A DNA stretch of 64,000 nucleotides, from the IMG/VR virus record IMGVR_UViG_3300020437_000004, positions 1 through 64,000 of that record; one strand, given 5' to 3'. This stretch comes from a virus. Below, piece after piece: positions 10,646 through 57,077 of this stretch. Each line of letters opens with the position of its first letter. Positions within the stretch are counted from its first letter, which is position 1. The position numbers and the translations under genes were made by a program. A model generated the notes under the pieces. The model searched no databases and was not told where the DNA came from. It saw nothing but the letters and a program-made list of their open reading frames with translations.

Positions 10646-11362
10646 TTACTTTGTCCAATATAACAGCGTTTGCTCATACATCAACTCTTTAACCTTTTTA
10701 GGATTGAGTCCTGCTACTCCTAGATCATCCTCTGTGTATGGGTGCTTAAGTTTACTAGCAACATCTAACAATTCATTGCGTTGCTCAATACCCATAAACT
10801 TGAATGCCATCATATATCTATTCCACAAGAAATATGGTGTGGGTGTGCGTCCTGAGTGTGGGATTCTACCATCGAAAATGACCACTCTGCCAGGTTTTGG
10901 CACTACTGCGTGGACGATATCTAACTCGTGATCATAGAATATAGTTTCTCCACCATAGTTAGGTATCCAAAACTGATTCATATAGACAATCATAGTGCAT
11001 TGATTATCACACCAGTATGGTGCATCACAATGGATTCTGGGTGCATCACCATGTTTCAACACATTCATATATGCTGAGTATAATGTCTCCCGTGGGGGCA
11101 CGGGCACATGTGAGCAATTTTCGAGTCTGTCTAACACCCATTGATATAGATGATGTCCTGAGCATTGATCAAAAGGTTTGCTTCCATGATGATCTACACT
11201 ATAGAAATCATGTGTATAGTATGTCCCTCTAAGATCTACTTTCTCAAGATTAGTTTGTGGCAAATCTTGTCTGCCATGATAATAAGGTAACTCTATTGCT
11301 TGCCGACAAATATCATCGTCAAGTATGTCAGTATCATATATTTTAATTAGAGGGTGCTTCAT
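10646..11362 (-). CDS. 2OG-Fe(II) oxygenase (prolyl-4-hydroxylase-like)
   Basis: A complete 238-residue enzyme of the prolyl-hydroxylase-like fold. The metal triad is H111-x-D113 (RIHCDAP) and H169 (DGRIPHSGR); R182 (WNRYMMAF) is placed for 2-oxoglutarate binding, and NYGGETIFYD is the typical strand after the first motif. It is the last of five consecutive oxygenase genes (13330 to 10646), with a four-base overlap with its neighbour. These are transcribed in the same direction as the halogenases and fibre genes upstream, which suggests a protein side chain as substrate; that is inference. Confidence 0.85.
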   Translation of the reverse strand: MKHPLIKIYDTDILDDDICRQAIELPYYHGRQDLPQTNLEKVDLRGTYYTHDFYSVDHHGSKPFDQCSGHHLYQWVLDRLENCSHVPVPPRETLYSAYMNVLKHGDAPRIHCDAPYWCDNQCTMIVYMNQFWIPNYGGETIFYDHELDIVHAVVPKPGRVVIFDGRIPHSGRTPTPYFLWNRYMMAFKFMGIEQRNELLDVASKLKHPYTEDDLGVAGLNPKKVKELMYEQTLLYWTK

Positions 11363-12069
11363 TCAATAAATCCAATGGTGTTGTTAAACTCATCATATCC
11401 TCTGTCAATGTTAGTCATTTGATATGCTGTGATATTCATAGTCATCACATATCTATTGCTATCACTATTGTTTCTGCCTGTCCTATGCTTCAACCAACCA
11501 GGAAAATATAATACATCATTTGTCTTTACTGGAATTTGGATCCAATGATCCTGTCTAGGTAATTCATAACCATCGTCAACAGGTTCTGCATACTTAAATG
11601 TATGCAAAGGATTGAGAATTTCTAGGTTACCACTACCTTCTGGCACATCTAAGTATGCACAAACTCCCACCTGCACATTGTGATGATGATGCTCTAACGT
11701 TGTTGCCTTGGGTGGATGTCTATTAATCCAACTCTCTGACATATTACGATAGACACCTTTAAGTGACCACATATCCCATATCCTATCTACAACACTAGGG
11801 ATGTGGTTGTTAGTCAAGTCATCAAAACATTGCCATCCGTGTGGTGGGTCATGTCGGCATCTACCAACTGACGATACTCCACCCTCTTCTAGTGCTGAGT
11901 TTAGATAGTTAGACTCTGGACTCTCGATAAAGTCTAGAAATATATCTGTCTCCTTTTTAATATCCTTCCATATATCTGAGAGATTATACTGTGATCTAAA
12001 GATAAAAGGATAAGGATTAACTGATTCTAAACCATCGCCAATCGACTGGTCTGGTAATGCTGTGAGCAT
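11359..12069 (-). CDS. 2OG-Fe(II) oxygenase (PF13759-like)
   Basis: Resembles the PF13759/TIGR02466 group of iron/2-oxoglutarate oxygenases. The metal site is in EHHHHNVQVGVCAYLDVPEG near residue 125, then a PLHTFKYAEP segment, FPGWLKHRTG with the distal histidine, and RYVMTMNITA with the arginine and closing strand. The 236-residue length is normal. It overlaps the upstream gene by 53 bases and the downstream oxygenase by four, so all are made from one transcript. Substrate unknown. Confidence 0.8.
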   Translation of the reverse strand: MLTALPDQSIGDGLESVNPYPFIFRSQYNLSDIWKDIKKETDIFLDFIESPESNYLNSALEEGGVSSVGRCRHDPPHGWQCFDDLTNNHIPSVVDRIWDMWSLKGVYRNMSESWINRHPPKATTLEHHHHNVQVGVCAYLDVPEGSGNLEILNPLHTFKYAEPVDDGYELPRQDHWIQIPVKTNDVLYFPGWLKHRTGRNNSDSNRYVMTMNITAYQMTNIDRGYDEFNNTIGFIE

Positions 12070-12739
12070 GATATAAAGAATAATGATGTACTGGAATACT
12101 CAAGGATATTCTCTCTTCTGACGGTTGTGCTTGATGATAACATCTTGGTGGGATGTATAGGGCATCACCTGCATTTAGCACAACATCTATAGCAGGTGTG
12201 AAACTATCATAGTCTATCATAGCATCGCCAGGATCTCCCTGTGCGACAAACGTTGCCCTTCTTTCATTATATACTTTCCAATGTGTCTTGCCTTTTAATT
12301 GCACGATGAAATTATTAGGCAAGTCCTCATGTATATAGAAACTATTTGACTTGCCTTTACCACAATATATTTGAAACTGACTATCACCTGAGAATATTTG
12401 TGACCACTCACCTACCATCTTCATGACCTTCTCACTTCTGTAAGAATAGTTGTTAATGATAAATGTATGTCCCTCTCTGAATAGTTGAAACAACTCGCTC
12501 TTTTCTTCCCATGCATGTGGTGACCATGAGCGTGGATGTTTATGTGGGTTTATCTTTCTTATCTCATGTTTACTTACAACATCGATATCGAAAAATTGTG
12601 GCATATTAAGGCAATATTCGACATCTTTCCATGAGCATATGTCATTGCACTCTTTCTCATCGATGACTTGCTCATAATAATATGGCACATCGAGATCCCA
12701 GTTTCTATCAAATAGTTTAAGGGGAAGTAAGAATGTCAT
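12017..12739 (-). CDS. JmjC/cupin-like oxygenase (ROX-like)
   Basis: Its central part resembles the JmjC-type cupin group that includes bacterial ribosomal oxygenases: FYIHEDLPNNFIVQLKGKTH gives the metal-binding H-x-D-like pair and the F..Q..G..W signature, followed by LNAGDALYIPPRCYHQAQPS with the distal histidine. Enzymes of this group hydroxylate histidine or arginine side chains in proteins. Here the metal pair reads H-E-D rather than the usual H-x-D/E, which fits within variation. Residue choice and substrate are not predictable, but the nearby fibres are unusually His-rich. Confidence 0.7.
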   Translation of the reverse strand: MTFLLPLKLFDRNWDLDVPYYYEQVIDEKECNDICSWKDVEYCLNMPQFFDIDVVSKHEIRKINPHKHPRSWSPHAWEEKSELFQLFREGHTFIINNYSYRSEKVMKMVGEWSQIFSGDSQFQIYCGKGKSNSFYIHEDLPNNFIVQLKGKTHWKVYNERRATFVAQGDPGDAMIDYDSFTPAIDVVLNAGDALYIPPRCYHQAQPSEERISLSIPVHHYSLYHAHSITRPVDWRWFRIS

Positions 12740-13391
12740 CAGGCATCCCTCGGAAATTAAAATTCAACACGATTCTATACTGATTGATCTTAGGATTAGA
12801 TGATGCATGAAATCTATTACCATCAAACAATACAAACTTATTCTTCTCTGGTTTGACTCTCTCTGCTATCGTGTAATCCTGTGTGAATATCTCATTGATA
12901 CGTCTATTGACATCACCATTTGGGTCATCACATTGATCGAATAGAATAGTATCTCCATCACTATCGTGGAAATAATATATACCAGTCATATGCTTACTGT
13001 CATGATCTGTGTGTGGTGTGTTGAAATCCTCCACAAAATGATTATGATGTAGCATTGCTAACCTGAGTCTAAACAACTCAAATGTCCCACGTCCTAACCT
13101 GTCCTGTATATGATCTACAATAGGAATAAAGAGATCATAATATTGTGAGACTGGTTGTCCATCATGAAACAACACATGTGTCCATCCAACACTTGTGCGT
13201 TTAGGTTCTGACTTTAGATCAACATCATCAGTATTGAGATTAATATTACCAAATTGATAATTATAACCACTACCAAATGTTACGTCATGTGGTAGAAAAT
13301 ACCAAGGGAAACCCCTTGATGTCATTGTATCAGTCAGTCGATTCAGATAGGTTGTCGTTAATAGATTCGATAGACTTCTGGATACTACCAT
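12717..13391 (-). CDS. 2OG-Fe(II) oxygenase
   Basis: 224 residues with H127-x-D129 (TPHTDHD), H195 (DGNRFHASSNP) and R206 (YRIVLNF), the metal triad and 2-oxoglutarate arginine. The motif GFPWYFLPHDVTFG near residue 27 is shared with other phage enzymes of this type and suggests that the true N-terminus could be nearer 13325, because the annotated start overlaps the upstream gene by 62 bases. Similar at the active site to the small enzyme at 5498. Confidence 0.82.
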   Translation of the reverse strand: MVVSRSLSNLLTTTYLNRLTDTMTSRGFPWYFLPHDVTFGSGYNYQFGNINLNTDDVDLKSEPKRTSVGWTHVLFHDGQPVSQYYDLFIPIVDHIQDRLGRGTFELFRLRLAMLHHNHFVEDFNTPHTDHDSKHMTGIYYFHDSDGDTILFDQCDDPNGDVNRRINEIFTQDYTIAERVKPEKNKFVLFDGNRFHASSNPKINQYRIVLNFNFRGMPDDILTSP

Positions 13392-14010
13392 AATTAATAT
13401 GCTGTGAGTATAGTGTCACGTTAAATGAGTAAGAGATTCTTTCCTCACTACTTTTGTTTGCTGCTACTTGATGTAGCATGTCTGCAGGGAAAATAATCAA
13501 CTGATCGACCTCAGGTTTGTATGATGCAATCTCATAGTTGAGTGGATTCAAACCATGTTGATAGTTATGTCCTACACCCCATGATTTAAACTTATGCAAC
13601 TCATCAAAAGGACGCATAAACGTGATGTCACCTGACTTCTCGGGCACTTTTGAGTAATATACTCCACCAAAGATTGCACCAGGATGTGAATGCACATGAT
13701 TGAGATCACCAGGCCCATTTATGTTTAACCAACCATTTGTTATCAACATAGCGTAATCTCTAAAACCTAGATCTTGGCACGCTACATCAACAACCTCATA
13801 GATTTGCTCTGAGAGATATTTCAATGGTGGTATGGTATGCATTCTTTCACTACCCCAGTCATTTGACTGGAAACCACCTTCGTTAGATGCTTTTCTACCT
13901 GACATCGCTCCACGATGCACCGTAGCAAATTCGTTAAAATGATCAGTATCTAATCCACAATTTTCCTTGTGCCAAATGCCACGAGGAAACCAATAATCAC
14001 ATTTAATCAT
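13330..14010 (-). CDS. 2OG-Fe(II) oxygenase (PF13759-like)
   Basis: Clear member of the PF13759/TIGR02466 type: NHVHSHPGAIFGGVYYSKV around residues 104-122 with the metal histidines, GDITFMRP, then IIFPADMLHQV with the distal histidine and ERISYSFNV with the 2-oxoglutarate arginine. First of the five-oxygenase run; its start abuts the stop of the 122-residue gene upstream. In established families this domain is often found in marine phages and bacteria without a known substrate. Confidence 0.88.
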   Translation of the reverse strand: MIKCDYWFPRGIWHKENCGLDTDHFNEFATVHRGAMSGRKASNEGGFQSNDWGSERMHTIPPLKYLSEQIYEVVDVACQDLGFRDYAMLITNGWLNINGPGDLNHVHSHPGAIFGGVYYSKVPEKSGDITFMRPFDELHKFKSWGVGHNYQHGLNPLNYEIASYKPEVDQLIIFPADMLHQVAANKSSEERISYSFNVTLYSQHINYGSIQKSIESINDNLSESTD

Positions 14011-14379
14011 TTAGTCCTCAAAGGTAAATTCCTTGTCAGTAATGTTAGGGTCAACATGCATTTTAAAGAGATAGAGTGCCTCTACCGCTCCTTGCAGTTT
14101 ATTAAGTTTATCTTTCTTCTCTTGTAGTCCTTCAAGAGATACACGAGTAACAGTAGATGAGTAAGACATATTGTCTAGTGCTTCGCTCATTTTCTGATAC
14201 TCTTCAGTTGCTTCCTTATGCTGATCGCAAAAGTCTTGCACTAGCTGGTCAAAGGTGAGTTTAACAGGATTACCATCCTCATCACACATAATGCCACGCT
14301 CTTCTTCACGAGAGACACCTGCCAACTCGTCAATTTTAATTTCTTCTGTAGTTTGACTACTGAGATTGTTTGCTTCCAT
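14011..14379 (-). CDS. hypothetical coiled-coil protein, 122 aa
   Basis: Acidic 122-residue protein with a long helical, coiled-coil-like second half (SLEGLQEKKDKLNKLQGAVE). Start overlaps the preceding stop as TAATG and a CTAAATA late-promoter-like element lies 23 bases upstream. It sits between the DUF6065-like protein and the oxygenases; a scaffold or adaptor role is only a guess. Confidence 0.6.
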   Translation of the reverse strand: MEANNLSSQTTEEIKIDELAGVSREEERGIMCDEDGNPVKLTFDQLVQDFCDQHKEATEEYQKMSEALDNMSYSSTVTRVSLEGLQEKKDKLNKLQGAVEALYLFKMHVDPNITDKEFTFED

Positions 14380-15245
14380 TAATCGAACCTCTCTAGGTTT
14401 TTATTTAGTGAGTTAATCTTCATGTGATCTTTAATACGGTCATTTAATTTGGTATTCTCAATAAACGATTTAGTTTTGAGATAATCCATCATTCTTTCCG
14501 CTTTGTAATCCTCATCGTTTGCAGTTTCGATGATGACATTAAACTCTTTTGTGTCTAACCACTTGCGTGGGATGGGAATCCATTGACACAATGGTGTCCC
14601 TGCTTCAACAATGTGGTCTCCCTCCATTGCATGCCAAAACAGTTGCACATTGATCTCATATGAGTATGACGGATCTACGATCCCTGTTGGTGCACTAAAT
14701 CGTTTGTCATCACTATATGATACTGGGATCTGCAAAATCACAATATCAGGGTGTGCCATGACCCTCCAAGGGGTCTCTAGTTTAACTACCTGCCCTAAGG
14801 TAGGTTGTGCTTTATTAACTAGATCACGCATACCATCAGTCTGTCTCTCAATGTGAGACGTGACATACTTACCACCAACAAACAACTGACGTGTCACCCA
14901 TTGAAATGTGCCTTTCTCTGGGTCTGGTCTAATTGCAAAGTCGGCAGGTGCAGGCAAAATCCATCCACTATCCATGATCGCAGTGATAGCAGGGCATGTG
15001 GCTGCATGCTCCTTGATACCATTGTCTTTCATTTTTAGGTTGTCGAATGTCTCTTTTAGTGCCAATACAGGGCAATCACTCTTGTTTTGGTATTGCTCTT
15101 TTAATGTATTGATTCGCCATTGACGTTTCAACTTTTGTGATGGGTATAGTGGGAAAAATTCGGCAACTCCTGCATCCATTGAATAAAATCTTATCCAAGG
15201 TTTCTGGAATTTACCCTTGATCTTCTTCCACATCGTCCTGACCAT
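14379..15245 (-). CDS. DUF6065-like protein, 288 aa
   Basis: Unknown function. The layout, an N-terminal IRFYSMDAGVAEFFPLYPS strand region, then CPAITAIMDSGWILPAPADF, and a C-terminal segment with GTPLCQWIPIPR, matches what I recall of the DUF6065 type, which has no established activity. It overlaps the end of halogenase 1 by 35 bases; GAGG nine bases upstream supports the ATG at 15245. Position between halogenases and oxygenases makes it a candidate partner in the same modification process. Confidence 0.6.
   Translation of the reverse strand: MVRTMWKKIKGKFQKPWIRFYSMDAGVAEFFPLYPSQKLKRQWRINTLKEQYQNKSDCPVLALKETFDNLKMKDNGIKEHAATCPAITAIMDSGWILPAPADFAIRPDPEKGTFQWVTRQLFVGGKYVTSHIERQTDGMRDLVNKAQPTLGQVVKLETPWRVMAHPDIVILQIPVSYSDDKRFSAPTGIVDPSYSYEINVQLFWHAMEGDHIVEAGTPLCQWIPIPRKWLDTKEFNVIIETANDEDYKAERMMDYLKTKSFIENTKLNDRIKDHMKINSLNKNLERFD
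14402..14408 (-). promoter_or_regulatory. late-promoter-like CTAAATA
   Basis: CTAAATA on the minus strand, 23 bases before the ATG of the 122-residue gene. It lies within the end of the upstream coding region. Confidence 0.4.
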
Positions 15246-16854
15246 AAATGTATCCTCTTAGATACTCATACTGAGTTGGTAATTGTTTTACTGAATTATA
15301 TATTGCTTCACGATCACGTTGCCAATCTTTGTGCACTTGCTCCACCTCACCCTTTCTGAGTGGGTATATATGATGTGCTTCAGCAACACTATGCTCGTTG
15401 ATAGGACGGAATCCCATACCAGCTGCAATATATACGAGACCATCAAATTTATCTGCTGACCAGAAATTCTTTCTCAGACCTTCATACAGTTGAAAATATT
15501 CCCTTCGTGATTCTAGCATAGAATGCCATCCAAGGCAATCATTCATATACTGTGTCAGGTCATGATTACTGAATAGTGCAGTATTTTGAGTAGCATCCCT
15601 CCAATACTTCGTGTCTTCACGTTGTGACAACACATAATGCATGCCAATAAAGTATTTCATAGACTCAATGGCATGATCGACAGTATAGTTATAACTGTCA
15701 ATATCAATCTTAGTTACGTTACCACGACGTTTGAGTGAGTCCACCAGATACAACAGATTCTCATGTGTAGTCATCAGACCAGTAGATTCTAGTGGCTCCA
15801 AGAAACCATATGCTAGTCCAATACCTACAACATTCTTGACCCACGCTTTCTCACGTTTGCCATGTCTGATACTAATCAGGCGATAGTCAGCATTGTCGGC
15901 AACTTTGGGCGAATATCGTTTTGCCAGATAACTTACAAACTCTTCGTGTGCAATGTCAGGGTCAATATATTTTTTACTGAATACATATCCTGCTCCTACT
16001 CTATTCCATAGTGGAATGTTATAACACCATCCATTAGACATTGCTACACAATCTGTGTAATTGTCCATCTGATTTTTACGATCCGTATATTCAACCCTAG
16101 CAGTCATTGCCATGTCGTTGAATAACACATCATTAAATGAGATAAACTTAGATCCCATCATACCTTCTAGGATCAGAGATTTAAAACCTGTGCAGTCAAT
16201 GTATAGGTCTGCTTCAATCATCAGACCTTCATCCCATCCCTCTGTGATATTTACTGACGTGATATGTCCTGTTGCATCTTTACTACAACTACCTACGATA
16301 CCCTCATATACTTTGACCTTCTTAAACTTTTTGCGTAGAAACTCACCAAACTTCTCACTATCCATATGGTATGCAGTATCCTGCTCCATATTCCAGTTAC
16401 GCATTTCTTCTGAAATATATTGTGGTGAGAGTTTATTCTGCTCTGATAGAATAGTATTTGGATTAAAGAAACGTGCAAACTCTTCGGGTGGATACAAGTG
16501 TGGATACTTTACTTGCAACTCAAAGAATGTCATATAATCACTACGATAATCGTTGTGATCTATGCGTCCAAATGGATATTGAAACCTCTCTCCGTTATTC
16601 TCTCTAAAGTTTTTAAATGCAATCGATGACTTGTAAGTAGCATTGCAATATGGCATCCACTCCTTGTCTTTGATGCCAAGAAATCTAAAAAACCTATTAA
16701 TATGTCCGAGTGTAGATTCTCCTACTCCAATAATATCTCTGCCTTTAGGTTGGATCAGGGTTACCTCAGCATTTGGGAATGCTTTCTGCATAGTTGCAGC
16801 TGCCATCCATCCAGATGACCCACCACCCACAATACAAAATGACTTATACTGCAT
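15211..16854 (-). CDS. flavin-dependent tryptophan-halogenase family protein 1
   Basis: Member of the PrnA-type flavin-dependent halogenases, which use FADH2, oxygen and chloride or bromide to halogenate an indole or similar ring. Visible: FAD-binding GGGSSGW (residues 10-16), GVGEST (43-48), the conserved lysine K75 in NATYKSSIAF that carries the hypohalous intermediate in characterised enzymes, the diagnostic motif as GWCYNIP (W-x-Y-x-I-P instead of W-x-W-x-I-P), and FLEPLESTG. The 547 residues match the family. A flavin reductase is not seen in the window and may come from the host. Overlaps halogenase 2 by 11 bases. Substrate unknown; the fibre proteins upstream are a candidate. Confidence 0.88.
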   Translation of the reverse strand: MQYKSFCIVGGGSSGWMAAATMQKAFPNAEVTLIQPKGRDIIGVGESTLGHINRFFRFLGIKDKEWMPYCNATYKSSIAFKNFRENNGERFQYPFGRIDHNDYRSDYMTFFELQVKYPHLYPPEEFARFFNPNTILSEQNKLSPQYISEEMRNWNMEQDTAYHMDSEKFGEFLRKKFKKVKVYEGIVGSCSKDATGHITSVNITEGWDEGLMIEADLYIDCTGFKSLILEGMMGSKFISFNDVLFNDMAMTARVEYTDRKNQMDNYTDCVAMSNGWCYNIPLWNRVGAGYVFSKKYIDPDIAHEEFVSYLAKRYSPKVADNADYRLISIRHGKREKAWVKNVVGIGLAYGFLEPLESTGLMTTHENLLYLVDSLKRRGNVTKIDIDSYNYTVDHAIESMKYFIGMHYVLSQREDTKYWRDATQNTALFSNHDLTQYMNDCLGWHSMLESRREYFQLYEGLRKNFWSADKFDGLVYIAAGMGFRPINEHSVAEAHHIYPLRKGEVEQVHKDWQRDREAIYNSVKQLPTQYEYLRGYIYGQDDVEEDQG

Positions 16855-18313
16855 ACAATGTCCTATTGTAATAATCTAACGGATTGACTCCTAGTCTAGC
16901 ATGATTCCACTCGTGTGTCCAACTGTTGAGGTGTGAGTCCTCAGGAATTCCACCATGAAATAGGATCTCACTTTCAATAACATCAGTAAATGGATTCCAT
17001 CCATGACCTGCCATCACACAATAGAGTGAGTCTCCATCAGCATTTTGCCAATTTAGTTTATTACCAAAATTATGTGACTCCTCTAGCATTGTGATCTTCG
17101 CTGCCTCAATCATATTACCATCAGGATATCTTATTTGCGATACCGCTTTCCAGTAATCTGAGTCATGACGCTGTGTAAGAGCATAATGAAGAGCAACAAA
17201 AGAAGCAAAACCATCGAATGCAAATGCTACTGCCTTGTTATATGTATCCCTCATCATTTGAGTGGTGTGCGGTTTCCACATCCTACAGAATTTGAGTAGG
17301 AATTCATGCACCGACAACAATCCATTAGATTCTAATGGTTCGATGAAACCACCAGACAATCCAATAGACACCACATTACCACACCATATCTCTTTCTTTC
17401 TTCCTGTCTTAAAATGTATCTTTCTAAACTCTTCAGTATCATATTTAAGGAAAGATGCAAACTCTTTTAGTGCACTTTGATGATCCTGATACTTACTAGA
17501 GAATACATATCCCGTCCCAATACGGGCAAATGTGGGCACTGTCCAGACCCAACCACTACTCAATGCTGTGCACTGTGTATATGATTTTAATTCCTCTTGT
17601 TTATCTTTATATTCTAAACGTGTGACCCATGCTGTATCATTTGGCAACCAGTCACTATAATCTAACCACTCAGAATTGTTGAGTAGAGATGTAAATCCTG
17701 TGCAATCAAAATATAAATCTGCTTCGTGTTGTTTCTCATCTATCCACAGATATTTTATATCGTCTCCTACCCTCTCAAAATCATCTACTGTGCCAATAAT
17801 ACGCTTGACACTCTGGCATTTATTGTCTCGTAACCACTCAGCGAATTTTACAGCATCAAAGTGAAATCCAGTATTCTTTTTGATTTTAAAATTAGGATCC
17901 TTGATAGGTAACAGGTTATGCTCTGCACATTCTGCTGCTATCCAATAATCTCTGGCAAATTTATCATTACTCCATCCTTTCTTATATTGATTCCAAAACC
18001 AGACATCAGGGTGTGCCAAATTATAATTTGGCGATCCAAATGGATATTGCCATGGTGTGTCGTCCACATCATGAAAATTACTAAATCTTACACTAATCTT
18101 ATATGTGGCATCACATGCCACCATCCAGTCCTCATCTTTGAGTCCTACATAATCTGCCCAGATCCTAAAATACTGAGTCGTAGACTCTCCTACACCCACA
18201 GGGGGTTTACTAGGTGACTCTACGACTGTGATGTCTGCGTCTGGAAATTTTGTCAGCATTGTGGTTGCTGTCATCCAACCAGATGACCCACCACCAATAA
18301 TATAAATTTTCAT
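16844..18313 (-). CDS. flavin-dependent tryptophan-halogenase family protein 2
   Basis: Second PrnA-type protein, 489 residues. FAD motif GGGSSGW (7-13), GVGEST (40-45), lysine K72 in DATYKISVRFSNF, diagnostic WVWTVP motif intact, and FIEPLESNGL. All residues expected of an active halogenase are present. It is the first of the pair and begins just after a TATAAT-like sequence, downstream of the fibre and chaperone-like genes. The two copies are clearly paralogous but not close. Halogenated product unknown. Confidence 0.9.
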   Translation of the reverse strand: MKIYIIGGGSSGWMTATTMLTKFPDADITVVESPSKPPVGVGESTTQYFRIWADYVGLKDEDWMVACDATYKISVRFSNFHDVDDTPWQYPFGSPNYNLAHPDVWFWNQYKKGWSNDKFARDYWIAAECAEHNLLPIKDPNFKIKKNTGFHFDAVKFAEWLRDNKCQSVKRIIGTVDDFERVGDDIKYLWIDEKQHEADLYFDCTGFTSLLNNSEWLDYSDWLPNDTAWVTRLEYKDKQEELKSYTQCTALSSGWVWTVPTFARIGTGYVFSSKYQDHQSALKEFASFLKYDTEEFRKIHFKTGRKKEIWCGNVVSIGLSGGFIEPLESNGLLSVHEFLLKFCRMWKPHTTQMMRDTYNKAVAFAFDGFASFVALHYALTQRHDSDYWKAVSQIRYPDGNMIEAAKITMLEESHNFGNKLNWQNADGDSLYCVMAGHGWNPFTDVIESEILFHGGIPEDSHLNSWTHEWNHARLGVNPLDYYNRTLYAV

Positions 18314-18331
18314 ACTATAAATTATAGCACA

Positions 18332-18739
18332 TTAACTAGGATATGGCTCCCATGCCATACGTCCTTCTACTTGAATTTTCTTAACATCCTCTGTGAATGC
18401 AGGTGCACTACTTGGACTAGGCACGTTTGCTTTTACTGCTGCAACATGATCTTTAAATCTTGTGCCACCATCTAGTTGGTCTTTGTAAATCATGTCCAAC
18501 TGCTCACCCACAGAACCATAGGCAATCGTGCGTGCAACAAGGTATGCTTCTGCCTGATTTTCTAGCTCTGCTCTTGGGTAGATAACACCATTAACCATAC
18601 GGTGCTCGTTGGTTGTGTCGTCAGGGACTTCCATCCACTTCATAGTAGCATCAGCACCATCGTAGATTTGAAACTCGTCACCGTCTTCACAAATGTCGGT
18701 GATCATTCCAGACTCACCGTGGATAATTGCTTTTTTCAT
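18332..18739 (-). CDS. fibre-associated protein, 135 aa (tail assembly chaperone-like)
   Basis: The segment AYGSVGEQLDMIYKDQLDGG resembles the G-D-Q-L-D-M-x-W/Y motif in short proteins that follow tail fibre genes in many phages and are taken to be fibre chaperones or adaptors. It is encoded directly after three fibre paralogues, and a CTAAATA element lies 24 bases before its ATG. The proline/serine-rich hinge (VPSPSSAPAF) near the C-terminus is also usual. Function is inferred from place and motif only. Confidence 0.6.
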   Translation of the reverse strand: MKKAIIHGESGMITDICEDGDEFQIYDGADATMKWMEVPDDTTNEHRMVNGVIYPRAELENQAEAYLVARTIAYGSVGEQLDMIYKDQLDGGTRFKDHVAAVKANVPSPSSAPAFTEDVKKIQVEGRMAWEPYPS

Positions 18740-18762
18740 TGGTTTTCTGAAAGAATCTTAGT

Positions 18763-18769
18763 TATTTAG
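18763..18769 (-). promoter_or_regulatory. late-promoter-like CTAAATA
   Basis: CTAAATA on the minus strand 24 bases before the ATG of the 135-residue chaperone-like gene, overlapping the stop of the fibre gene upstream. Confidence 0.45.
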
Positions 18770-19575
18770 CCATAATATTCGTGGACTACCACAACACCTA
18801 CACGTCCAGATGCACCTCTGTTACTGTGCTGTGATCCATTACCACCTGCTCCCCATGCACTATGACCTTCGTGTCTATGAGAATAGTTACTTTGTCTGTG
18901 TGAGCTGGGTTGCGATCCACCATAGTATGATCTACCACCTGAGTGGTTACCATATGAGTGATGAGATCCATGACCATTACCTCCACCACCGTGGACGTTT
19001 AGGTTACCACCTGAGCCGTTACCTCCATATCCACCTGAGTGTTGTTGAGAGCAGTTTGCACCAACTCCACCACCTGCTGAGCAGTAACCACCAAAACTAG
19101 ATGAGTTACCGTTACCTCCACAACCTGAGTAGTTTGTGCCACCACCAGGATTTCCTACTGTAACAGATACTGAGCTGACATTCTGCACGTCAATAACTCT
19201 TTGTGACATACCACCTGCACCACCTGCTTCGGTATATCCTGACCCTCCACCACCTGCACCAACAACGGTGACCATGATAGATTTACAGTCACTAGGTCTT
19301 GTCCATGTGCCATTAGATGTCCACACCTGCACAGCTCTAAAACCTGATACTGCAGACGCTTCAACCCATGACAGGTTTGTGCCATCGGTCTGTAGGAATC
19401 TACCTGACTGACCTGACTGGTTAGGGATAATATACTTTGATGATCCAGTAACGTTACCGTTAATAGTAATGTTACCCACAATCAGAGTCGCATTGGCAGT
19501 AATACCACCAGTGGTCAAAGTGAAACCCGAGATGCCTGCAAGGTCTTTTACATTTGTAACTCTAAGTGTGCTCAT
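18766..19575 (-). CDS. Gly/His-rich tail fibre or adhesin, paralogue 1
   Basis: 269 residues in three parts: an N-terminal beta-structured attachment region (about 1-95, ending near FLQTDGTNLSWVEAS), a hinge with VWTSNGTWTRPSDCKSIMVT, and a glycine-rich C-terminus (GAGGGGSGYTEAGGAGGMSQ and on) with dense His, Ser, Tyr and Asn. It ends with VVVVHEYYG. Such glycine-rich domains form the tips of some T-even adhesins. It overlaps paralogue 2 by four bases. It is probably exposed on the particle and involved in host recognition; its His-rich tip could bind metal ions. Confidence 0.8.
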   Translation of the reverse strand: MSTLRVTNVKDLAGISGFTLTTGGITANATLIVGNITINGNVTGSSKYIIPNQSGQSGRFLQTDGTNLSWVEASAVSGFRAVQVWTSNGTWTRPSDCKSIMVTVVGAGGGGSGYTEAGGAGGMSQRVIDVQNVSSVSVTVGNPGGGTNYSGCGGNGNSSSFGGYCSAGGGVGANCSQQHSGGYGGNGSGGNLNVHGGGGNGHGSHHSYGNHSGGRSYYGGSQPSSHRQSNYSHRHEGHSAWGAGGNGSQHSNRGASGRVGVVVVHEYYG

Positions 19576-21161
19576 CTGAAATACAACTCCACCCTTGCTG
19601 ATCTATTTATTCCGTTACGGTTCTGGCAACAGTTGATACGGTCTCCTGCTGAGTAGTTACCAAAGTTACCAGTCATACCAATACCACCTGATACGTCATC
19701 AGAGTTCATGTCTGCTTCTGGATAACCACCAGACCCACCACCGTTTTCATTCCATCCAAATCCCCAACGTGTGCGTGCCCAACCACCATTGTTTCTGTAG
19801 TTGAATCCGTAGAATCTAACGTGTGACTGACCAGAGAAATTACCAATACCACAGAATTCGTTGGCATTAGACTTATAGAATCTATCTACCTGATTCCAGA
19901 AGTTGATAGGCTCAATCCTACCACCTCTACCATATCCTGTGTTGAAATCTGTTTCAAACCATGTCCATCCTCTGTTACTACTAGGGACGCATCCTCCGTT
20001 ACCAATATCTGGCCAAATTGCCATGATATCCTTGGCACGGAATCTATTCATAACTTCAAACTTAGCATCACCATCGTTGGTGTTTGTTGATCCTGTGTTG
20101 AGAGTATTGTTAGATGTCCAGTAACTAGATCCCCAGTTAAATGTGGTGCCACGAGTTGCTTTCATACCCATCATCCAACCACCACCTAACCATCTATTAT
20201 CCATCAAACAATAGATTTGGGTTGCTCCTACGCCAGGTAAGTTAATCCAATAAACTCCATCACCTGCACCAGGATTTCTAATCTTGATTTCCTCTGCAGA
20301 TTCTGCAGGGTTACCAGATGATTGACCATAAGAAGTATCGGGCGATGTTGGGCGTCCATAGAATTCATGGACTACGACAACACCTTGTCTACCACTAGCA
20401 CCTCTGTTACCGTGCTGTGATCCGTTACCACCTGCACCCCACGCTGAGTGCCCTTCATGTCTGTGACTGTAGTTACCTTGTCTGTGAGAAGACGGTTGTG
20501 ATCCACCGTAGTAACTTGCTCCTCCTGCATGGTTTCCATAAGAGTGATGAGATCCGTGGGCGTTTCCTCCTCCACCAAATACGTTTAGTGTACCACCAAT
20601 ACCTTCTCCTCCTAATCCACCTTCGTGCTGCTGAATACAATTCGATCCTCCTCCACCTCCACCAGTGACATAGGAGCCGAAACTTGAAGAGTTGCCGTTT
20701 CCACCACATCCTGCGTAATTTGTACCTCCGCCAGGATTTCCTACTGTAACTGATACAGATGTTACGTTGTTTACATCAATGACACGTTGAGACATTCCGC
20801 CTGCCCCACCTGCCTCACAATAACCAGATCCACCACCGCCTGCTCCGACGGCTGTAACCATAATACTTGTGCAGTCAGACGGTCTATTCCATGTGCCGTT
20901 TCCTGTCCACACTTGCATACTTCTAATACCTGCAAGACCTGCTGCTTCAACCCATGAGAGTTGACTACCATCAGTCTGCAAGAGTTTGCCTGCATTACCT
21001 GCCTGCCTTGGGATAATATGATCAGAGTTACCAGAGATAGCTCCGTTAATTACAATATTACCTACAACCAACGGAAGTGTTGCTGTAACACCACCATTAG
21101 ATAGAGAGAATCCACCTGTGTCGGTTAGATCATTAATTGAAGATACTTTTAAAAGACTCAT
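19572..21161 (-). CDS. Gly/His-rich tail fibre with C-terminal fibrinogen/intelectin-like domain
   Basis: The first 270 residues match the two neighbouring paralogues (attachment region, hinge, Gly/His-rich segment ending VVVVHEFYG). It then continues for about 260 residues with a domain that looks like a fibrinogen-related or intelectin-type lectin: GVYWINLPGVGATQIYCLMD, GGGWMMGMKATRG, a Trp-rich middle (RWGFGWNENGGGSGGYPEAD) and the end INRSARVELYFR. Those domains bind carbohydrates in animals. Cysteines are present at the expected early and late positions. A receptor-binding role on the host surface is likely; ligand unknown. Confidence 0.78.
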   Translation of the reverse strand: MSLLKVSSINDLTDTGGFSLSNGGVTATLPLVVGNIVINGAISGNSDHIIPRQAGNAGKLLQTDGSQLSWVEAAGLAGIRSMQVWTGNGTWNRPSDCTSIMVTAVGAGGGGSGYCEAGGAGGMSQRVIDVNNVTSVSVTVGNPGGGTNYAGCGGNGNSSSFGSYVTGGGGGGSNCIQQHEGGLGGEGIGGTLNVFGGGGNAHGSHHSYGNHAGGASYYGGSQPSSHRQGNYSHRHEGHSAWGAGGNGSQHGNRGASGRQGVVVVHEFYGRPTSPDTSYGQSSGNPAESAEEIKIRNPGAGDGVYWINLPGVGATQIYCLMDNRWLGGGWMMGMKATRGTTFNWGSSYWTSNNTLNTGSTNTNDGDAKFEVMNRFRAKDIMAIWPDIGNGGCVPSSNRGWTWFETDFNTGYGRGGRIEPINFWNQVDRFYKSNANEFCGIGNFSGQSHVRFYGFNYRNNGGWARTRWGFGWNENGGGSGGYPEADMNSDDVSGGIGMTGNFGNYSAGDRINCCQNRNGINRSARVELYFR

Positions 21162-21164
21162 TAG

Positions 21165-21974
21165 TTAACCCCAGAATTCGTGCACAACAACAATACCCTC
21201 ACGACCTCGGGCACCCCTGTTACTATGTCGAGATCCGTTTCCACCAGATCCCCATGCTGCATGTAGCTCATGTCTGTGTGACCAGTTTACTTGGTTATGA
21301 CCTGCAGGTTGTCCACCACCGTAGTAACTAACACCTGATGCATAGTTACCATAAGAGTGATGACTACCATGACCATTACCCCCGCCACCATGCACGTTTA
21401 GTTGTCCACCACTACCGTTACCACCATAACCACCTGCGTGCTGCTGTGAGCAGTTAGCTCCTACACCACCAGATGCACTACAATATCCACCGAATGATGA
21501 GGTATTACCATTACCACCACAACCTGAGTAGTTAGTACCTCCACCAGGATTACCTACTGTGACAGATACAGATGAAACGTTAGTCACATCAACTTGGCGT
21601 TGTGACATACCACCTGCACCACCAGATTCTGTATATCCTGATCCACCGCCACCTGCACCAACACATGTGACCATGATGTTTTTACATCCCTCTGGTCTAT
21701 TCCATGTGCCATTAGCAGTGAATACTTCCATTGATCTGATACCAGATCTAGTTGTTAATGATGACCAAGAAGGTGTTGATCCATTAGTGGTTAGAAACTT
21801 ACCACCTTGCCCTCCTTGTGAAGGTACAACGTAGTTTGATGATCCACCAATAGTGCCGTTGATAACAAGGTCACTAACAGTTAAAGTACCATTGATCGAA
21901 ATGGTAGTATTGGTGATACTAAAACCATTAACACCAGAGGTATCTTGAATTGTATTAACTCTTAGTAGTGCCAT
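21165..21974 (-). CDS. Gly/His-rich tail fibre or adhesin, paralogue 3
   Basis: Third member of the tandem family, 269 residues, same layout as paralogue 1, ending VVVHEFWG. The N-terminal parts of the three copies differ more than the glycine-rich parts, which share near-identical stretches such as GGAGGMSQR and NPGGGTNYSGCGGNG. This is the first of the three to be transcribed. Duplication with local divergence is typical of host-range proteins. Confidence 0.8.
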   Translation of the reverse strand: MALLRVNTIQDTSGVNGFSITNTTISINGTLTVSDLVINGTIGGSSNYVVPSQGGQGGKFLTTNGSTPSWSSLTTRSGIRSMEVFTANGTWNRPEGCKNIMVTCVGAGGGGSGYTESGGAGGMSQRQVDVTNVSSVSVTVGNPGGGTNYSGCGGNGNTSSFGGYCSASGGVGANCSQQHAGGYGGNGSGGQLNVHGGGGNGHGSHHSYGNYASGVSYYGGGQPAGHNQVNWSHRHELHAAWGSGGNGSRHSNRGARGREGIVVVHEFWG

Positions 21975-21975
21975 G

Positions 21976-22311
21976 TTAATTCACAAACGGTTTAAGTGCT
22001 TCGTAGAAAGACCCAGTATTATTTAGCTTACCTTCATCTATGTCTTTCCATAGTTTTTCTAGTAATTGAGCATTAGTCGGGCGATATTTAGCAACATCAA
22101 AAGTCAAATCCTTGACTTTATTCAAGATCAATACTGGATCATATTCTCTATTATCGCTAAATGTAATGTTGTATGGATCAATATTTGTCAATACATAACC
22201 TGCACCAGGATATACTGCCTCAATCGCCTCTTTGAGCACAACTTCATCCTCAGGGATAGTTTGCTTATCCCTTACACGGTCTAGGAATTTTCTCCAATCT
22301 GATTCAATCAT
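21976..22311 (-). CDS. hypothetical protein between fibre genes, 111 aa
   Basis: An acidic 111-residue soluble protein containing DPYNITFSDNREYDPVLILN and a helical C-terminus. It is coupled to the 300-residue structural gene by a one-base overlap (TAATG). Its place suggests a minor structural or assembly protein. No domain recognised. Confidence 0.6.
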   Translation of the reverse strand: MIESDWRKFLDRVRDKQTIPEDEVVLKEAIEAVYPGAGYVLTNIDPYNITFSDNREYDPVLILNKVKDLTFDVAKYRPTNAQLLEKLWKDIDEGKLNNTGSFYEALKPFVN

Positions 22312-23213
22312 TAGTTACCTCTGACCTCCAAAGCCATTAGTGTGCTGACACTTCTCATGTCATTGCTACCTCTATCATTTATGTAGAGATCTCTTACTGA
22401 CCCACTCCATGATGCAGACGCCCCAACAGTGTATGTGACAGCGTTTGTGGTGCCAGGTGTGTCATGATAGTGCACTGGCCACGAATACATGTGGTCACTG
22501 GTGTCGTCACCAGTATATGTAGTAGCAACAGATCCACTACCAACGTTGTTGTTTCCGCTTAGTCCACTAGTGATTAGGTTACCATCACGGAAGAAACCAA
22601 ATGATGTAACATGTCTAGCGTTACCTGTAATCATTGCAATCAATACAATCTTAGAGTTTGTATGTGTAGGTGCAATGGATACCTCTAAGTCAGGTATCTG
22701 AGTTAAGTTGTTATCTCTAATCAAATAACGATTAGGGGGTGTTGATGCAAACTTTGCCTGCACAACCTCACCCTCTTTTAGGTCATTCTCCTCTCCACCA
22801 AGAATAAACCATGTTGCATTATTTTCAACAGTAACAGTATTACCACTAGCAATTTCCACAGGACCTGCAGTGAAACCGTTAGTAAATTCTACTCCTCCGT
22901 TTGCAATAGGTCCTACAGTGATATTCTCACCGATTGTAGGTCCATTTGTACGAATGATAGAGTCTTCACCTACGGCAGGACCTCCACCACCCACGTCATC
23001 CCAACCTGGCACACCTGCTGCAGCATCTTGTAAATAGATTTGTGCCATATCTTCGGTGGTATTATACACCAAAGTACCATAGGCAGGTGTCCCAAGACCA
23101 TTAATTGCAGTTTGAGTAAGAGCAGGCAGGTTGATCTGCTCTGTCACAGTTAGAGCAGTAATAATTGCTCTTGTGGCAGCGTCAATCTGATTACCATTAA
23201 TCTTAGTAGACAT
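22311..23213 (-). CDS. virion structural protein, fibre-like, 300 aa
   Basis: Starts with a short helical segment and a TAYGTLVYNTTEDMAQIYL-like region (here GTPAYGTLVYNTTEDMAQIY) that is frequent at the N-termini of phage fibre proteins, followed by Gly/Thr/Asn-rich beta repeats and a beta-sandwich-like C-terminal 150 residues. A CTAAATA late element lies 20 bases before the ATG. Likely a particle-surface protein; exact role unknown. Confidence 0.7.
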   Translation of the reverse strand: MSTKINGNQIDAATRAIITALTVTEQINLPALTQTAINGLGTPAYGTLVYNTTEDMAQIYLQDAAAGVPGWDDVGGGGPAVGEDSIIRTNGPTIGENITVGPIANGGVEFTNGFTAGPVEIASGNTVTVENNATWFILGGEENDLKEGEVVQAKFASTPPNRYLIRDNNLTQIPDLEVSIAPTHTNSKIVLIAMITGNARHVTSFGFFRDGNLITSGLSGNNNVGSGSVATTYTGDDTSDHMYSWPVHYHDTPGTTNAVTYTVGASASWSGSVRDLYINDRGSNDMRSVSTLMALEVRGN

Positions 23214-23232: not shown

Positions 23233-23239
23233 TATTTAG
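23233..23239 (-). promoter_or_regulatory. late-promoter-like CTAAATA
   Basis: CTAAATA on the minus strand, 20 bases before the ATG of the 300-residue structural gene and overlapping the stop of the gene upstream. Confidence 0.45.
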
Positions 23240-26200
23240 ATAACCAACTCTCTTACATGGATAGTGTCACCTGTTTGTGGCACTGTGCCAATAGAGAAAT
23301 CAACAGAGTTTCCACTCACTTGATAGTCAACACCAGGCACCTGACATACTCCATTTAGGAATACTAATAGAGAGTAAGATGTATGGTTAGGGGAGATAGC
23401 GAAGGTTGCAGTTGCTCCATCACCATTGTATGTGGTGCCGTTGTTGCTGTTAGCAAGACCAGTAGCAAGTGTATACTTATCGGCAGCACCGTAGTATCCA
23501 GTTACTTCTAGGTTACCTTCAACATGGAAGTTACCTCCAATCTTCATTCTATTTGTAGCGTCAGGTGCTATACCAACACCATAGTGTGTAACGCCACTAT
23601 AACGATTAGATGTGATAGGCGTAGTATCACTCAATCCAAACTTATACCATGTGCCTGCATCATAAATCCAACCAAGTGCTTGACCTGGTTGCCAATCAAT
23701 GTTGTAACACATGTCTCCTGTGTTGAATGCAGAATCTGCCTGTGTAACAGGAAGTCCAGATCCGTCATCCTCAGCAAGGAATGTCTTTCTCAGCACCGTG
23801 CCATCGTCGTTAGAGTATGTAAACTCTAGTGACTGGATCTCATCCTGTGATGTAACTTTCTTCTGGAAAGTAACAGGACCTGAGAATACTGATTCCAACT
23901 GGTTAGATGCACCACCAATAACAGTTAGTTTATCAGTCAGCACCAATTCAGAGAATGTCTCAATCGTTGTGCCTTCCTCACCCAACACGTTAAGTTGTGC
24001 AATATCTTCGTTAGTGATCTGACCTGTAACTGGGTTAATAACCTGGTTACCAACAAACAACTCACCATCACTGTTAACACCTGAGTAGTATGCAACACCT
24101 GCTGATTCTTTGAGTGACTGTGACAATCTAACCTGAGCAGGTGACAACACTTCCACCTGTGTAGATGGGAATGCAGTTGAATAGTTACCTGGTCCGAAAC
24201 CAAGGTATTCAAACGTGTGACCTGACGCTCTAAGGATAGAGTATCTTCTCAGCTCAACCAGTAGCGGTTGCACGCTGCTATCAGCGTTAAGTTTCAGAGG
24301 AATCTTTCTTTCCTCTGCATCACCCAGACGTGCAGTAACTGAGATACCATTCAACACGTTAGATGCTGTAGTATATCCTAAGTTATTTTGTGACTCCTGT
24401 AGATAATACTGTGTAGTCTCTTTTGTGATAGAGAGCTGAGTATTCTCATTTGGTGTAGGAGATGCACCGTCAGTTGTCTTCACTAGACCCAACACTTCAT
24501 TATCTGCAACAGAGATAGATGCTGCAGGGTCTGCAACAGGATTGTCTCTGTCAAATGCAGGGTAGAGATCAACTGTTTGTTGAGAGAAGTTGAATTCGTT
24601 GAAGTTAGTTGTTGTTGGGCTAACTGAAGCATTAAGAAGAGTCAGATAGTATACACCATCTGTGACACCTCTTTCAAACTCTTGATATGTCTCGACTGCA
24701 TAGATGTAATATGTCCGTGAGTATGCAGGAGAGTTAGTCTCGGAAGATCTGGGCTGAATAACGAAACCAGTAATCGGTGTCCTAGGCACTGGGAATGCGT
24801 CTTTATCAAGGACGTAACGATAACGATAGATTCTGTCAACAAGGTTTCTAGCATCAGGCACCCTACGGATGAATGTAGTAGGTGTGAATCCGAGGTTTTG
24901 ATATGTTGTATTAGACTGTAGTGTAGTATAAATTGTATTCTGACTACCATCTACTTGGATATACCAGTTGCTTTGCACGCTATCCCACTTGAGAGGAGAG
25001 TCATCATCACCAGGTGATGTGCCTGTTACAGTAGGACCTGAAGGTGTAATCTCTGCGTAGTGTGTAGTTGGCTCAGATGCACCAGATGCAACCAGTAGCA
25101 CATAAACTCTATCTGGGGTGTTTACGTCGTCTCTTCTAGCACCAACTGTATAGCCTTGGACTTTTGAAGGTGGTTTGCCAGTTTCTACGGAGTAACCATA
25201 TAGGAATAGTTTTGTAGGATCTGCTGCTGCTCTAGTCTTATTAATATCAATGGTCACCCAGTTAACTGAGATCTCTTCAACATCTGATAGTCCTTTTGGT
25301 GGGATAACGTGAGTTATTTGCCCAGCCTTGTCTTTTGTAAAACTTGCCGACTTAAATCCTGTTGATCTAAGTGAAGTATTTCCGAAGTTACTGTTACTAT
25401 TAGTGATAGAAAGGTCGCCACCACTATTGCTAAAGAAATGATCGCCAAATCCCACAGCGAAAACAGAAACGACTTGAATGAAAGCGTCGTTGGATGCTTT
25501 GATATGGCAGTTACGCCATCCTTTACGGTATTTTGCCAGTCCATTAATATGTGCTCCACTACCTGCTGCTTGTGCTTCATATTGTCCTGTTGTTGGATTA
25601 TATAAAACAAATGCTCTATCGTCTTTTTGTAGAGAGATACCTGTAAACTGTGCCACAACCATGGATTTGAAACCAGTTGCCTCGGCACCATCAGCGTGCA
25701 TACCATTGATACCCCAAACTGATCTTAGCGAGCAGTTGAATACATATGGAGATGCAGAGTCAACAGTATCAATCTCAACTTTAACAAGGACGTTACTACC
25801 AATAGCATTACCAGATGGCTCAGCACTCATCTGATAAGTAAACTGGTTACCTTGTGCAGACGTAACAAAGAATGATCCATTATACAATAACTGATCCTGC
25901 TCAGTAGGACCTGTTACACCAGAAATATTAACAGCAACACCAACAGAGAAACCGTGGTTTTTGGGGTTACCCAATTCATCCACGGTAAATGCAGTAGCAG
26001 TCTGTCCGTTTCTAATGATCTGTGATACAGCAAATTCATCAGAGATCGGACCTACAATTCTGTTTTCCTCAACTCTTGCCTGTAACTGGTCTTGTGCGAT
26101 AATACCAGATGAGTCGGGGATTGTAGCGTATGCTTTAGAGATCTTCTGATAGTAGAGGTTTAGATCATCTGTATTAGCATACTCAAAACATGTTAGTTTA

Positions 26201-26808
26201 TGATGTGAGAAGTTAGGTGCGATCTGTGAGAGGTCGTCTCTATAGAATACACCATTGTTGTCCCCATCAAAGAAGGACATCTGCCAGAAATATGTTGCAC
26301 CAGTTAACCTAAAGATCGCAGTAGGATCAGGTTCATTAGCAGCAGTAATACCGAGACTACCCTGTACTGTGGGATAAGGGACATATTTCGGAACGATTTT
26401 GGTTCGACGTAAGTCCGAACCAACAACAGAGCAACCACGAGGGACAATAATACCACCACGAGTTGAATTAAATTTATAAAGCTCATTGGATGCAGACGTT
26501 ATATCAAAGTTAGTATTCTCATTAAATGGTTGGATCTGGTTAAAATCTGCAAGACCTGGTCTATTGTCTAGCACATACTCGGAAGGATACAGATAGATCG
26601 AGAATGCATCGAATTCGTCATTACTAAGACCAACTCTGTATGAAAATCTCGATACTTCTAGAAATGCACGTTGCAACGTCTTAAATGGACGTAACGCTGA
26701 GTTACCTCTATTATCAAAACTATCTGACGCATCAAAATCATCGGGGTTAACGTAGATAATACGTCCAGTCCTCGATGTAATGATATTTTTAAGACGAGTA
26801 AGTGCCAT
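23236..26808 (-). CDS. large virion structural protein, 1190 aa
   Basis: The N-terminus (TGRIIYVNPDDFDASDSF, then NRGNSALRPFKTLQRAFLEV) is characteristic of a large structural protein found in many T4-like cyanophages; a pectate-lyase-like beta-helix near the N-terminus is plausible from ALRPFKTLQRA and GGIIVPRGCSVVG. The rest is a chain of beta-rich modules, with a C-terminal TFAISPNHTSYSLLVFLNGV strand domain seen in other phage fibres. It is probably part of the baseplate or long fibre system. A TAATAAATA element lies 21 bases upstream. Confidence 0.75.
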   Translation of the reverse strand: MALTRLKNIITSRTGRIIYVNPDDFDASDSFDNRGNSALRPFKTLQRAFLEVSRFSYRVGLSNDEFDAFSIYLYPSEYVLDNRPGLADFNQIQPFNENTNFDITSASNELYKFNSTRGGIIVPRGCSVVGSDLRRTKIVPKYVPYPTVQGSLGITAANEPDPTAIFRLTGATYFWQMSFFDGDNNGVFYRDDLSQIAPNFSHHKLTCFEYANTDDLNLYYQKISKAYATIPDSSGIIAQDQLQARVEENRIVGPISDEFAVSQIIRNGQTATAFTVDELGNPKNHGFSVGVAVNISGVTGPTEQDQLLYNGSFFVTSAQGNQFTYQMSAEPSGNAIGSNVLVKVEIDTVDSASPYVFNCSLRSVWGINGMHADGAEATGFKSMVVAQFTGISLQKDDRAFVLYNPTTGQYEAQAAGSGAHINGLAKYRKGWRNCHIKASNDAFIQVVSVFAVGFGDHFFSNSGGDLSITNSNSNFGNTSLRSTGFKSASFTKDKAGQITHVIPPKGLSDVEEISVNWVTIDINKTRAAADPTKLFLYGYSVETGKPPSKVQGYTVGARRDDVNTPDRVYVLLVASGASEPTTHYAEITPSGPTVTGTSPGDDDSPLKWDSVQSNWYIQVDGSQNTIYTTLQSNTTYQNLGFTPTTFIRRVPDARNLVDRIYRYRYVLDKDAFPVPRTPITGFVIQPRSSETNSPAYSRTYYIYAVETYQEFERGVTDGVYYLTLLNASVSPTTTNFNEFNFSQQTVDLYPAFDRDNPVADPAASISVADNEVLGLVKTTDGASPTPNENTQLSITKETTQYYLQESQNNLGYTTASNVLNGISVTARLGDAEERKIPLKLNADSSVQPLLVELRRYSILRASGHTFEYLGFGPGNYSTAFPSTQVEVLSPAQVRLSQSLKESAGVAYYSGVNSDGELFVGNQVINPVTGQITNEDIAQLNVLGEEGTTIETFSELVLTDKLTVIGGASNQLESVFSGPVTFQKKVTSQDEIQSLEFTYSNDDGTVLRKTFLAEDDGSGLPVTQADSAFNTGDMCYNIDWQPGQALGWIYDAGTWYKFGLSDTTPITSNRYSGVTHYGVGIAPDATNRMKIGGNFHVEGNLEVTGYYGAADKYTLATGLANSNNGTTYNGDGATATFAISPNHTSYSLLVFLNGVCQVPGVDYQVSGNSVDFSIGTVPQTGDTIHVRELVI

Positions 26809-57069: not shown

Positions 57070-57077
57070 TATTTATA
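57070..57077 (-). promoter_or_regulatory. late promoter TATAAATA
   Basis: Exact late promoter on the minus strand, 50 bases before the ATG of the secreted beta-barrel-like protein, overlapping the end of the third halogenase relative. Confidence 0.65.

Follow-up and report, generated by a model that had tools for sequence, protein, structure and literature searches.

The gene block and its surroundings

The window analysed here is a stretch of 64,000 nucleotides of viral DNA that forms part of a 124,853-base viral record (IMG/VR record IMGVR_UViG_3300020437_000004). Between positions 10646 and 21974 it carries a block of 13 genes, all on the minus strand and spaced by overlaps or by gaps of at most 26 bp, in which fibre tip genes are followed by predicted halogenase and oxygenase genes. 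A preliminary description of this DNA had reported such a same-strand block, and every gene it listed was found in place. The nearest named phage is the T4-like cyanophage P-TIM40, with 89% DNA identity across the whole island. The ratio of nonsynonymous to synonymous substitution rates (dN/dS) against P-TIM40 was 0.04-0.16 for every island gene, which points to purifying selection throughout, so all 13 genes are maintained.

The block opens with three paralogous tip genes, which also match phrog_863. Tip 1 (21165-21974, 269 amino acids) is a Gly/His-rich protein of receptor-binding type and matches PF21722 (Gly_rich_2) with E 1e-13, above the cut-off. Tip 2 (19572-21161, 529 amino acids) joins a tip domain to a fibrinogen-like C-terminal domain with the motif YCDxxxxGGGW and matches PF21722 and, above cut-off, NF040941; tip 3 (18766-19575, 269 amino acids) matches PF21722 with E 1e-12. 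The next gene encodes a small tip-associated protein of 135 amino acids (18332-18739; phrog_1787), a putative tip chaperone, and is followed by two VirX1-type flavin-dependent halogenases, Hal1 (16844-18313, 489 amino acids) and Hal2 (15211-16854, 547 amino acids). These match PF04820 with E 5e-91 and 6e-99 and the VirX1 structure 6QGM with E 2e-82 and 6e-136, respectively. A phrog_7084 protein of 288 amino acids (14379-15245; profile match) with a dUTPase-like beta core plus helices predicted from a structure model, and a coiled-coil-like protein of 122 amino acids (14011-14379) with no confident Pfam match, come before the oxygenases. Homologues of the coiled-coil-like protein occupy the same position in 25 of 60 cassettes.

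Three kinds of oxygenase complete the block. Oxygenases 1 (13330-14010; PF13759 E 3.5e-19) and 4 (11359-12069; PF13759 E 9e-15) are 2OG-FeII_Oxy_5 proteins, oxygenases 2 (12717-13391; PF13640 E 7e-6, HTD motif) and 5 (10646-11362; PF13640 E 7e-9, HCD motif) are 2OG-FeII_Oxy_3 proteins, and oxygenase 3 (12017-12739; PF08007 E 6e-19) is a JmjC_2 protein of the ribosomal-oxygenase type. Oxygenases 2 and 5 also match phrog_274, which is labelled "DNA endonuclease V", and RefSeq puts the same name on the homologues of P-TIM40 and other cyanophages; the label is probably wrong.

The island continues from shaft (phrog_693) and proximal fibre (phrog_529) genes. Upstream of the tips, also on the minus strand, profile matches identify a small protein with weak likeness to phrog_1787 (21976-22311) and a fibre-associated protein (phrog_7459, 22311-23213). 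The proximal tail fibre gene (phrog_529, 23236-26808, minus strand) is common to 460 phage records, whether the cassette is present or not. The T4-type late promoter motif TATAAATA occurs in the window at chance-level frequency, and none lies within 8.5-27 kb.

Linkage of tip and halogenase genes

In the IMG/VR survey, duplicate proteins were removed and loci were counted only when at least 3 kb lay downstream of the tip. A halogenase was found downstream of the tip at all 117 distinct loci, at a median distance of 555 bp and a maximum of 2279 bp, and the order tip, small protein (phrog_1787), halogenase was kept at 116 of them. The tip-anchored scan alone gave a halogenase at 68/68 loci, and tips of the linked type without a halogenase were not seen. 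Because searches anchored on the tip or the halogenase start from the linked genes, we added two neutral anchors, gp13 and the S-SM1-type proximal fibre. Upstream of gp13, 10 loci had both tip and halogenase, none had the tip without a halogenase, 10 had a halogenase without the tip and 28 had neither (Fisher 2.8e-5). Of the 10 loci with only a halogenase, at least two plainly start within the cassette because the contig is truncated there, and seven encode further Gly-rich proteins (27-32% Gly) in the vicinity. No halogenase was found downstream of the S-SM1-type fibre (0/45 loci). As S-SM1-type loci encode proteins of 28-39% Gly, Gly-richness alone was ruled out as a predictor of a halogenase. 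The window's own proximal fibre, used as an anchor, yielded no tip-less loci and thus no contrast for the association, and a scan with the S-H38 Gly-rich protein returned one locus only.

The linkage was also seen among named phages. A tblastn search of INPHARED detected the tip in 12 records; another 8 have a divergent tip of the S-RIM44/Sf type, and all 20 carry a VirX1-type halogenase. Any halogenase was present in 69 of at least 460 cyanophage records, so that the overlap with the tip has a hypergeometric probability of 2e-18 with relatedness ignored. When 41 genomes were searched over their whole records, the halogenase adjoined the tip in 20 strong-tip records, and no halogenase was found nearby in the three records with weak, distant tip homologues. 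Two tip cassettes (L062, L066) hold three or more tandem flavin halogenases from separate tree groups.

The cassette occupies two unrelated genomic sites. One lies behind the proximal fibre (P-TIM40, Syn10, S-WAM1, S-SZBM1, P-RSM6 and S-CREM1) and the other before gp13 (S-RIM44, Sf-FP1 and Sf-FR1). Within the S-RIM44 group, five records have the tip, the halogenases, phrog_7084 and JmjC together, and the remaining four (KX349292, KX349295, KX349297 and KU594607) have none of the tip, cassette halogenases, phrog_7084 or JmjC, their only halogenase being a distant one near 167 kb. The site was compared in one record of each kind. Np_42_0711 carries three tips, the small protein, two halogenases, phrog_7084, oxygenases and JmjC, whereas at the same site, from the giant fibre to gp13, Np_05_0604 carries a tip of another kind, a protein with weak homology to the small protein and a single 2-oxoglutarate (2OG) oxygenase; the gp13-side flanks of the two records are 94-95% identical. 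Co-linear retention at two sites together with joint presence and absence in S-RIM44 is hard to explain by chance or by a metabolic role.

A second, homologous tip family, collected from weak tip matches (27 distinct full-length proteins), served as a control. Twenty-four of its loci extend far enough for a judgement; every one of them has the small protein and a 2OG oxygenase, and 23 lack the halogenase (Fisher 1.5e-25 against 117/117, phylogeny ignored). A tip of this related kind, accompanied by the same partner protein, thus manages without halogenase, JmjC and phrog_7084. The sole exception, L541, has all three. The co-occurrence and co-loss survey proposed in the preliminary description thus bears out the association: it holds across the IMG/VR loci, in S-RIM44 and against the control family. 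Halogenases placed independently of these fibres were found only among other halogenase types and in a minority of the VirX1 clade. Taken together, the linkage of tip and halogenase is strongly supported.

Properties of the enzymes and the tips

PF04820 covers most of each halogenase of the window with scores of 332 and 306 bits against a curated cut-off of 21. Hal1 contains the motifs ATYK, EPLES and WVWTVP, and Hal2 contains ATYK, EPLES and WCYNIP; in a survey of 208 proteins, the halogenases retain the flavin adenine dinucleotide (FAD) motif GxGxxG, the catalytic Lys, the Glu of EPLES and the WxWxIP-type motif. Both fall within the viral VirX1 clade in a quick tree of a 118-row set (Shimodaira-Hasegawa-like approximate likelihood ratio test, SH-aLRT, 100), and in a tree of 166 proteins (quick tree, SH-aLRT 100) 88 of 92 tip-linked halogenases form one viral set with VirX1. 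By sequence, Hal1 and Hal2 are therefore VirX1-clade flavin-dependent halogenases (FDHs) of predicted activity. VirX1 is the crystallised FDH of cyanophage Syn10, PDB 6QGM (Gkotsi et al. 2019, cited in PMC10452541), and proved to be the second halogenase of Syn10's own cassette, after the tip genes (sequence L002, 13499-15091). The halogenases of the cassette thus resemble VirX1 in clade and in setting; work on VirX1 concerned small molecules, and in the literature that was searched we found nothing published that connects VirX1 with the tip genes. VirX1 has an open active site and no assigned pathway (PMC8407142), which would fit a bulky native substrate.

The T4-GC212 "prnA" halogenases of Syn1, S-PM2, P-SSM2 and S-SSM7 are cyanophage PF04820 proteins like those of the cassette, but they fall into separate tree groups outside the VirX1 set and lie in metabolic-gene regions of genomes with no tip. 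Since these lie in metabolic regions and S-B64-type halogenases beside SbcC or UvsX-like genes, the notion that every phage halogenase is fibre-linked was ruled out. The S-PM2 halogenase frame (L015, 121319-122608) has an internal stop. Halogenases of the VirX1 set were also found beside other fibres (L046, L081 and L096); at L046 (9992-13264) the halogenase lies directly between a 920-amino-acid fibre and a 451-amino-acid protein that is 36% Gly, a fibre linkage that arose independently and involves a different type of tip. The cassette neighbourhood was absent around bacterial relatives of the halogenases with one exception, L254, a Prochlorococcus single-cell contig with phrog_7084 that is probably viral. 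Away from the fibres, the window encodes a third halogenase-like protein of 384 amino acids (57073-58227, minus strand; phrog_2928 E 4e-79), which is shared with P-TIM40.

The oxygenases retain HxD or HxH metal motifs. In the JmjC protein, the metal-binding HED is at 137 and the distal His was placed by inspection in a PRCYHQ stretch; its nearest solved relatives are the histidyl hydroxylases NO66 (E 2e-6) and MINA and the L16 arginine hydroxylase. On this basis, oxygenase 3 is of the JmjC ribosomal-oxygenase type and a predicted protein hydroxylase. It shares the JmjC_2 domain with NO66, MINA53 and YcfD, which hydroxylate His or Arg in proteins; those are cellular enzymes with ribosomal substrates, whereas the cassette JmjC is viral. 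The phrog_7084 protein, found with halogenase-linked tips, had been called DUF6065-like, an identity that was not borne out, as DUF6065 matched only one of six homologues with E 0.08. Its model (predicted local distance difference test, pLDDT, 89.5) matched dUTPases in Foldseek with E 2e-4, and the protein is a possible recognition or scaffold subunit. The position of the small phrog_1787 protein makes a role as tip chaperone probable.

The model of the tip domain, built with AlphaFold, had a pLDDT of 82 and exceeded 90 across much of residues 80-200. The best solved match of its fold was the fibre of cyanophage Pam3 (7YPX, E 5e-8), and the tail tip of mycobacteriophage Bxb1 was also among the best. 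A PDB profile search with the tip gave no match, and the 50 fold matches listed, of 82 in total, did not include S16 gp38. In the gp38 adhesins of T2, S16 and PP01 phages, a poly-glycine sandwich core bears the receptor loops (PMC12892980). The tip resembles a gp38-type Gly-rich tip in its Pfam domain (PF21722) and in being encoded by a small separate gene behind the shaft and fibre genes, and differs in that its best fold match is the Pam3 fibre; its receptor binding is putative. To our knowledge, gp38 adhesins have no halogenase or oxygenase partners.

The preliminary description had called the fibres rich in Trp, Tyr, His and Asn. This was correct for His (2.5-4.5% against a background of 1.6) and Asn (8-10% against 5.7), as it would have been for Gly (21-24% against 9), but Trp (1.5-1.9% against 1.4) and Tyr (3.3-4.1% against 3.9) are close to background. 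The 529-amino-acid fibre reaches 3.0% Trp over its whole length only through its fibrinogen-like tail. The composition thus ruled out Trp/Tyr richness as an argument for the tip as a substrate. The tip also offers few sites for trypsin. The argument that was tested concerns individual conserved positions. In the numbering of tip 1, positions 149, 195, 231, 233 and 235 are aromatic or His in 81-100% of 160 halogenase-linked tips and in 0-7% of 15 representatives of the halogenase-less family, and positions 70 and 114 are, less firmly, specific to linked tips in the same sense. These positions, with Tyr149, Tyr/His195, an aromatic 231 and His233/235 first in line, are provisional candidates for modified residues. 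The Tyr149 of halogenase-bearing L541, which belongs to the other tip family, is not relied on, as there is an alignment indel there. S-CREM1 has two tip copies side by side, of which the first (54494-55291 of its record) is interrupted by five stop codons and the other is intact.

Proposed tip modification and the alternatives

We consider it rather likely that the halogenases and the JmjC and 2OG enzymes of the cassette modify the adjacent tip after translation, and the tip is accordingly the substrate we favour, with similar confidence. Whether the modification would comprise halogenation plus hydroxylation is a more evenly balanced matter, and an effect on adsorption or host range is a tentative suggestion. 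The favoured reading draws on the linkage, the co-presence and co-absence in S-RIM44, the selection, the intact motifs, the tip-type fold and the aromatic or His positions confined to linked tips. The central proposal of the preliminary description had been that the fibre tips are the target of these enzymes; the linkage, the joint presence and absence and the control family speak for it, and its Trp/Tyr argument and the specificity of the 2OG oxygenases fell away.

In the mechanism we propose, the tip, its small partner (a probable chaperone) and the tailoring enzymes would be produced together from one T4-like cyanophage gene block, the tip being translated with help from the small partner. 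In the cytoplasm during infection, while virions are being assembled or earlier, the two VirX1-type halogenases would add Cl or Br (or I) to exposed aromatic side chains of the tip (Tyr/Trp/Phe/His), the JmjC and 2OG enzymes would hydroxylate side chains of the His/Asn/Arg/Pro type, and phrog_7084 would be an accessory. The modified tip may then differ in stability or in its contact with the receptor.

Enzymes of this fold are known to act on encoded substrates. The FDH-fold halogenases SrpI and MibH, from pathways of ribosomally synthesised and post-translationally modified peptides (RiPPs), act on Trp in encoded peptides (PMC12615548), and QhpG, an FDH-like monooxygenase with weak profile similarity to Hal1, acts on protein Trp (PMC7876137). 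As with these enzymes, an FDH-fold enzyme here stands beside the gene of an encoded peptide or protein, which in the cassette is a candidate substrate only; the known enzymes act on natural-product peptides or on the precursor of a quinone cofactor, whereas the cassette's candidate is a viral attachment protein. The layout is RiPP-like in that the candidate substrate gene is adjacent and co-inherited at 117/117 loci, and that the tip is the substrate is what we infer.

Several observations weigh against tip modification. The substrate is deduced from gene neighbourhood, and no modified tip has ever been observed. In vitro, VirX1 takes many small aromatics (PMC8407142). The VirX1-clade halogenases of L008 (S-B64), L080, L084 and L090 are far from fibres and have replication or recombination genes as neighbours, following immediately after genes of SbcC-like or replicative-helicase-like type, so that the family is not tied to fibres alone. 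At L541, with a tip of the halogenase-less type, a halogenase lies 6.6 kb further downstream. The named residues are provisional, since the control tip family is distant and indels occur near 149 and 231 in its alignment. Finally, 2OG oxygenases also occur behind other fibres, at 21 of 28 tip-less fibre loci, whereas JmjC and phrog_7084 were found at none of the 28; the halogenases, JmjC and phrog_7084 are specific to these tips, which does not hold for the class of 2OG oxygenases as a whole.

The activity of VirX1 on free aromatics would also suit an auxiliary metabolic role, in which the enzymes make a halogenated small molecule such as an antibiotic, a toxin or a decorated polysaccharide and lie near the fibres only because this region is variable. 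Published views run in this direction, proposing pyrrolnitrin-like antibiotic protection (PMC2984593, PMC9964418) or, for the cluster of S-SSM6a, a halogenated metabolite or decoration of the capsule (PMC7824862). Clusters of the S-SSM6a type, however, contain carbamoyltransferases and sugar enzymes, and their halogenase does not belong to the VirX1 clade. Carbamoyltransferase and sugar-modifying enzyme genes accompany the S-SSM7 halogenase, whereas neither annotation nor profile searches identified any in the cassettes of the window, Syn10, S-WAM1 and P-RSM6. As a metabolic role does not predict that tip and halogenase are jointly present or absent, at two sites, we regard it as unlikely, if the least unlikely of the alternatives. 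Pure hitch-hiking, with a recombination hotspot gathering unrelated genes, would be in keeping with the variable cassette site, but gene order is kept across divergent phages at two sites, the 117 loci give no exception and purifying selection is strong, which leaves it very improbable.

Tip-specific co-presence would also be explained if the enzymes modified a host surface or receptor precursor recognised by this tip type, for example to block superinfection, and left the tip itself unmodified. The cassette, however, forms one block with late-type structural genes, the halogenases start directly at the FAD-binding fold with no signal peptide, and late expression would be poorly timed for altering a receptor; we give this explanation little weight. 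We find it just as doubtful that the substrate is another virion protein, such as the fibre shaft, the fibrinogen-like domain of the 529-amino-acid fibre or a baseplate part. Other virion genes do adjoin the cassette, and Trp enrichment is confined to the fibrinogen-like domain, but the proximal fibre and phrog_7459 occur without halogenases in many phages, and the feature common to all linked cassettes is the tip domain and not the fibrinogen-like extension.

Earlier papers assign these halogenases to antibiotic protection or to auxiliary metabolism (PMC2984593, PMC9964418, PMC9146016, PMC10452541). The preliminary description had taken the linkage of tip and enzymes to be undescribed, and in a literature search of incomplete coverage we found no description that joins a halogenase to a tail fibre, which leaves priority unproven. 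Seen as a tailoring cluster, the cassette would bring familiar enzyme families together with a substrate of a new sort, and it would be categorically new if halogenated virion tips exist. It may or may not be, on a balanced judgement, that marine phages carry a dedicated, exchangeable set of enzymes that halogenates (C-Cl, C-Br or C-I) and hydroxylates their own receptor-binding tip, which would be the native role of the VirX1 type. For VirX1 and most cyanophage "tryptophan halogenases", what has been published on the native role amounts to guesses (antibiotic protection or metabolism), and the tip next door offers a concrete candidate substrate that is cheap to test. If tip modification is correct, VirX1-type enzymes would be natural protein halogenases of use in protein chemistry, and ocean surveys would need caution before assigning these genes to the auxiliary metabolic class. 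Phages would then apply halogen chemistry to their receptor-binding protein, and their attachment would vary in ways invisible from sequence alone.

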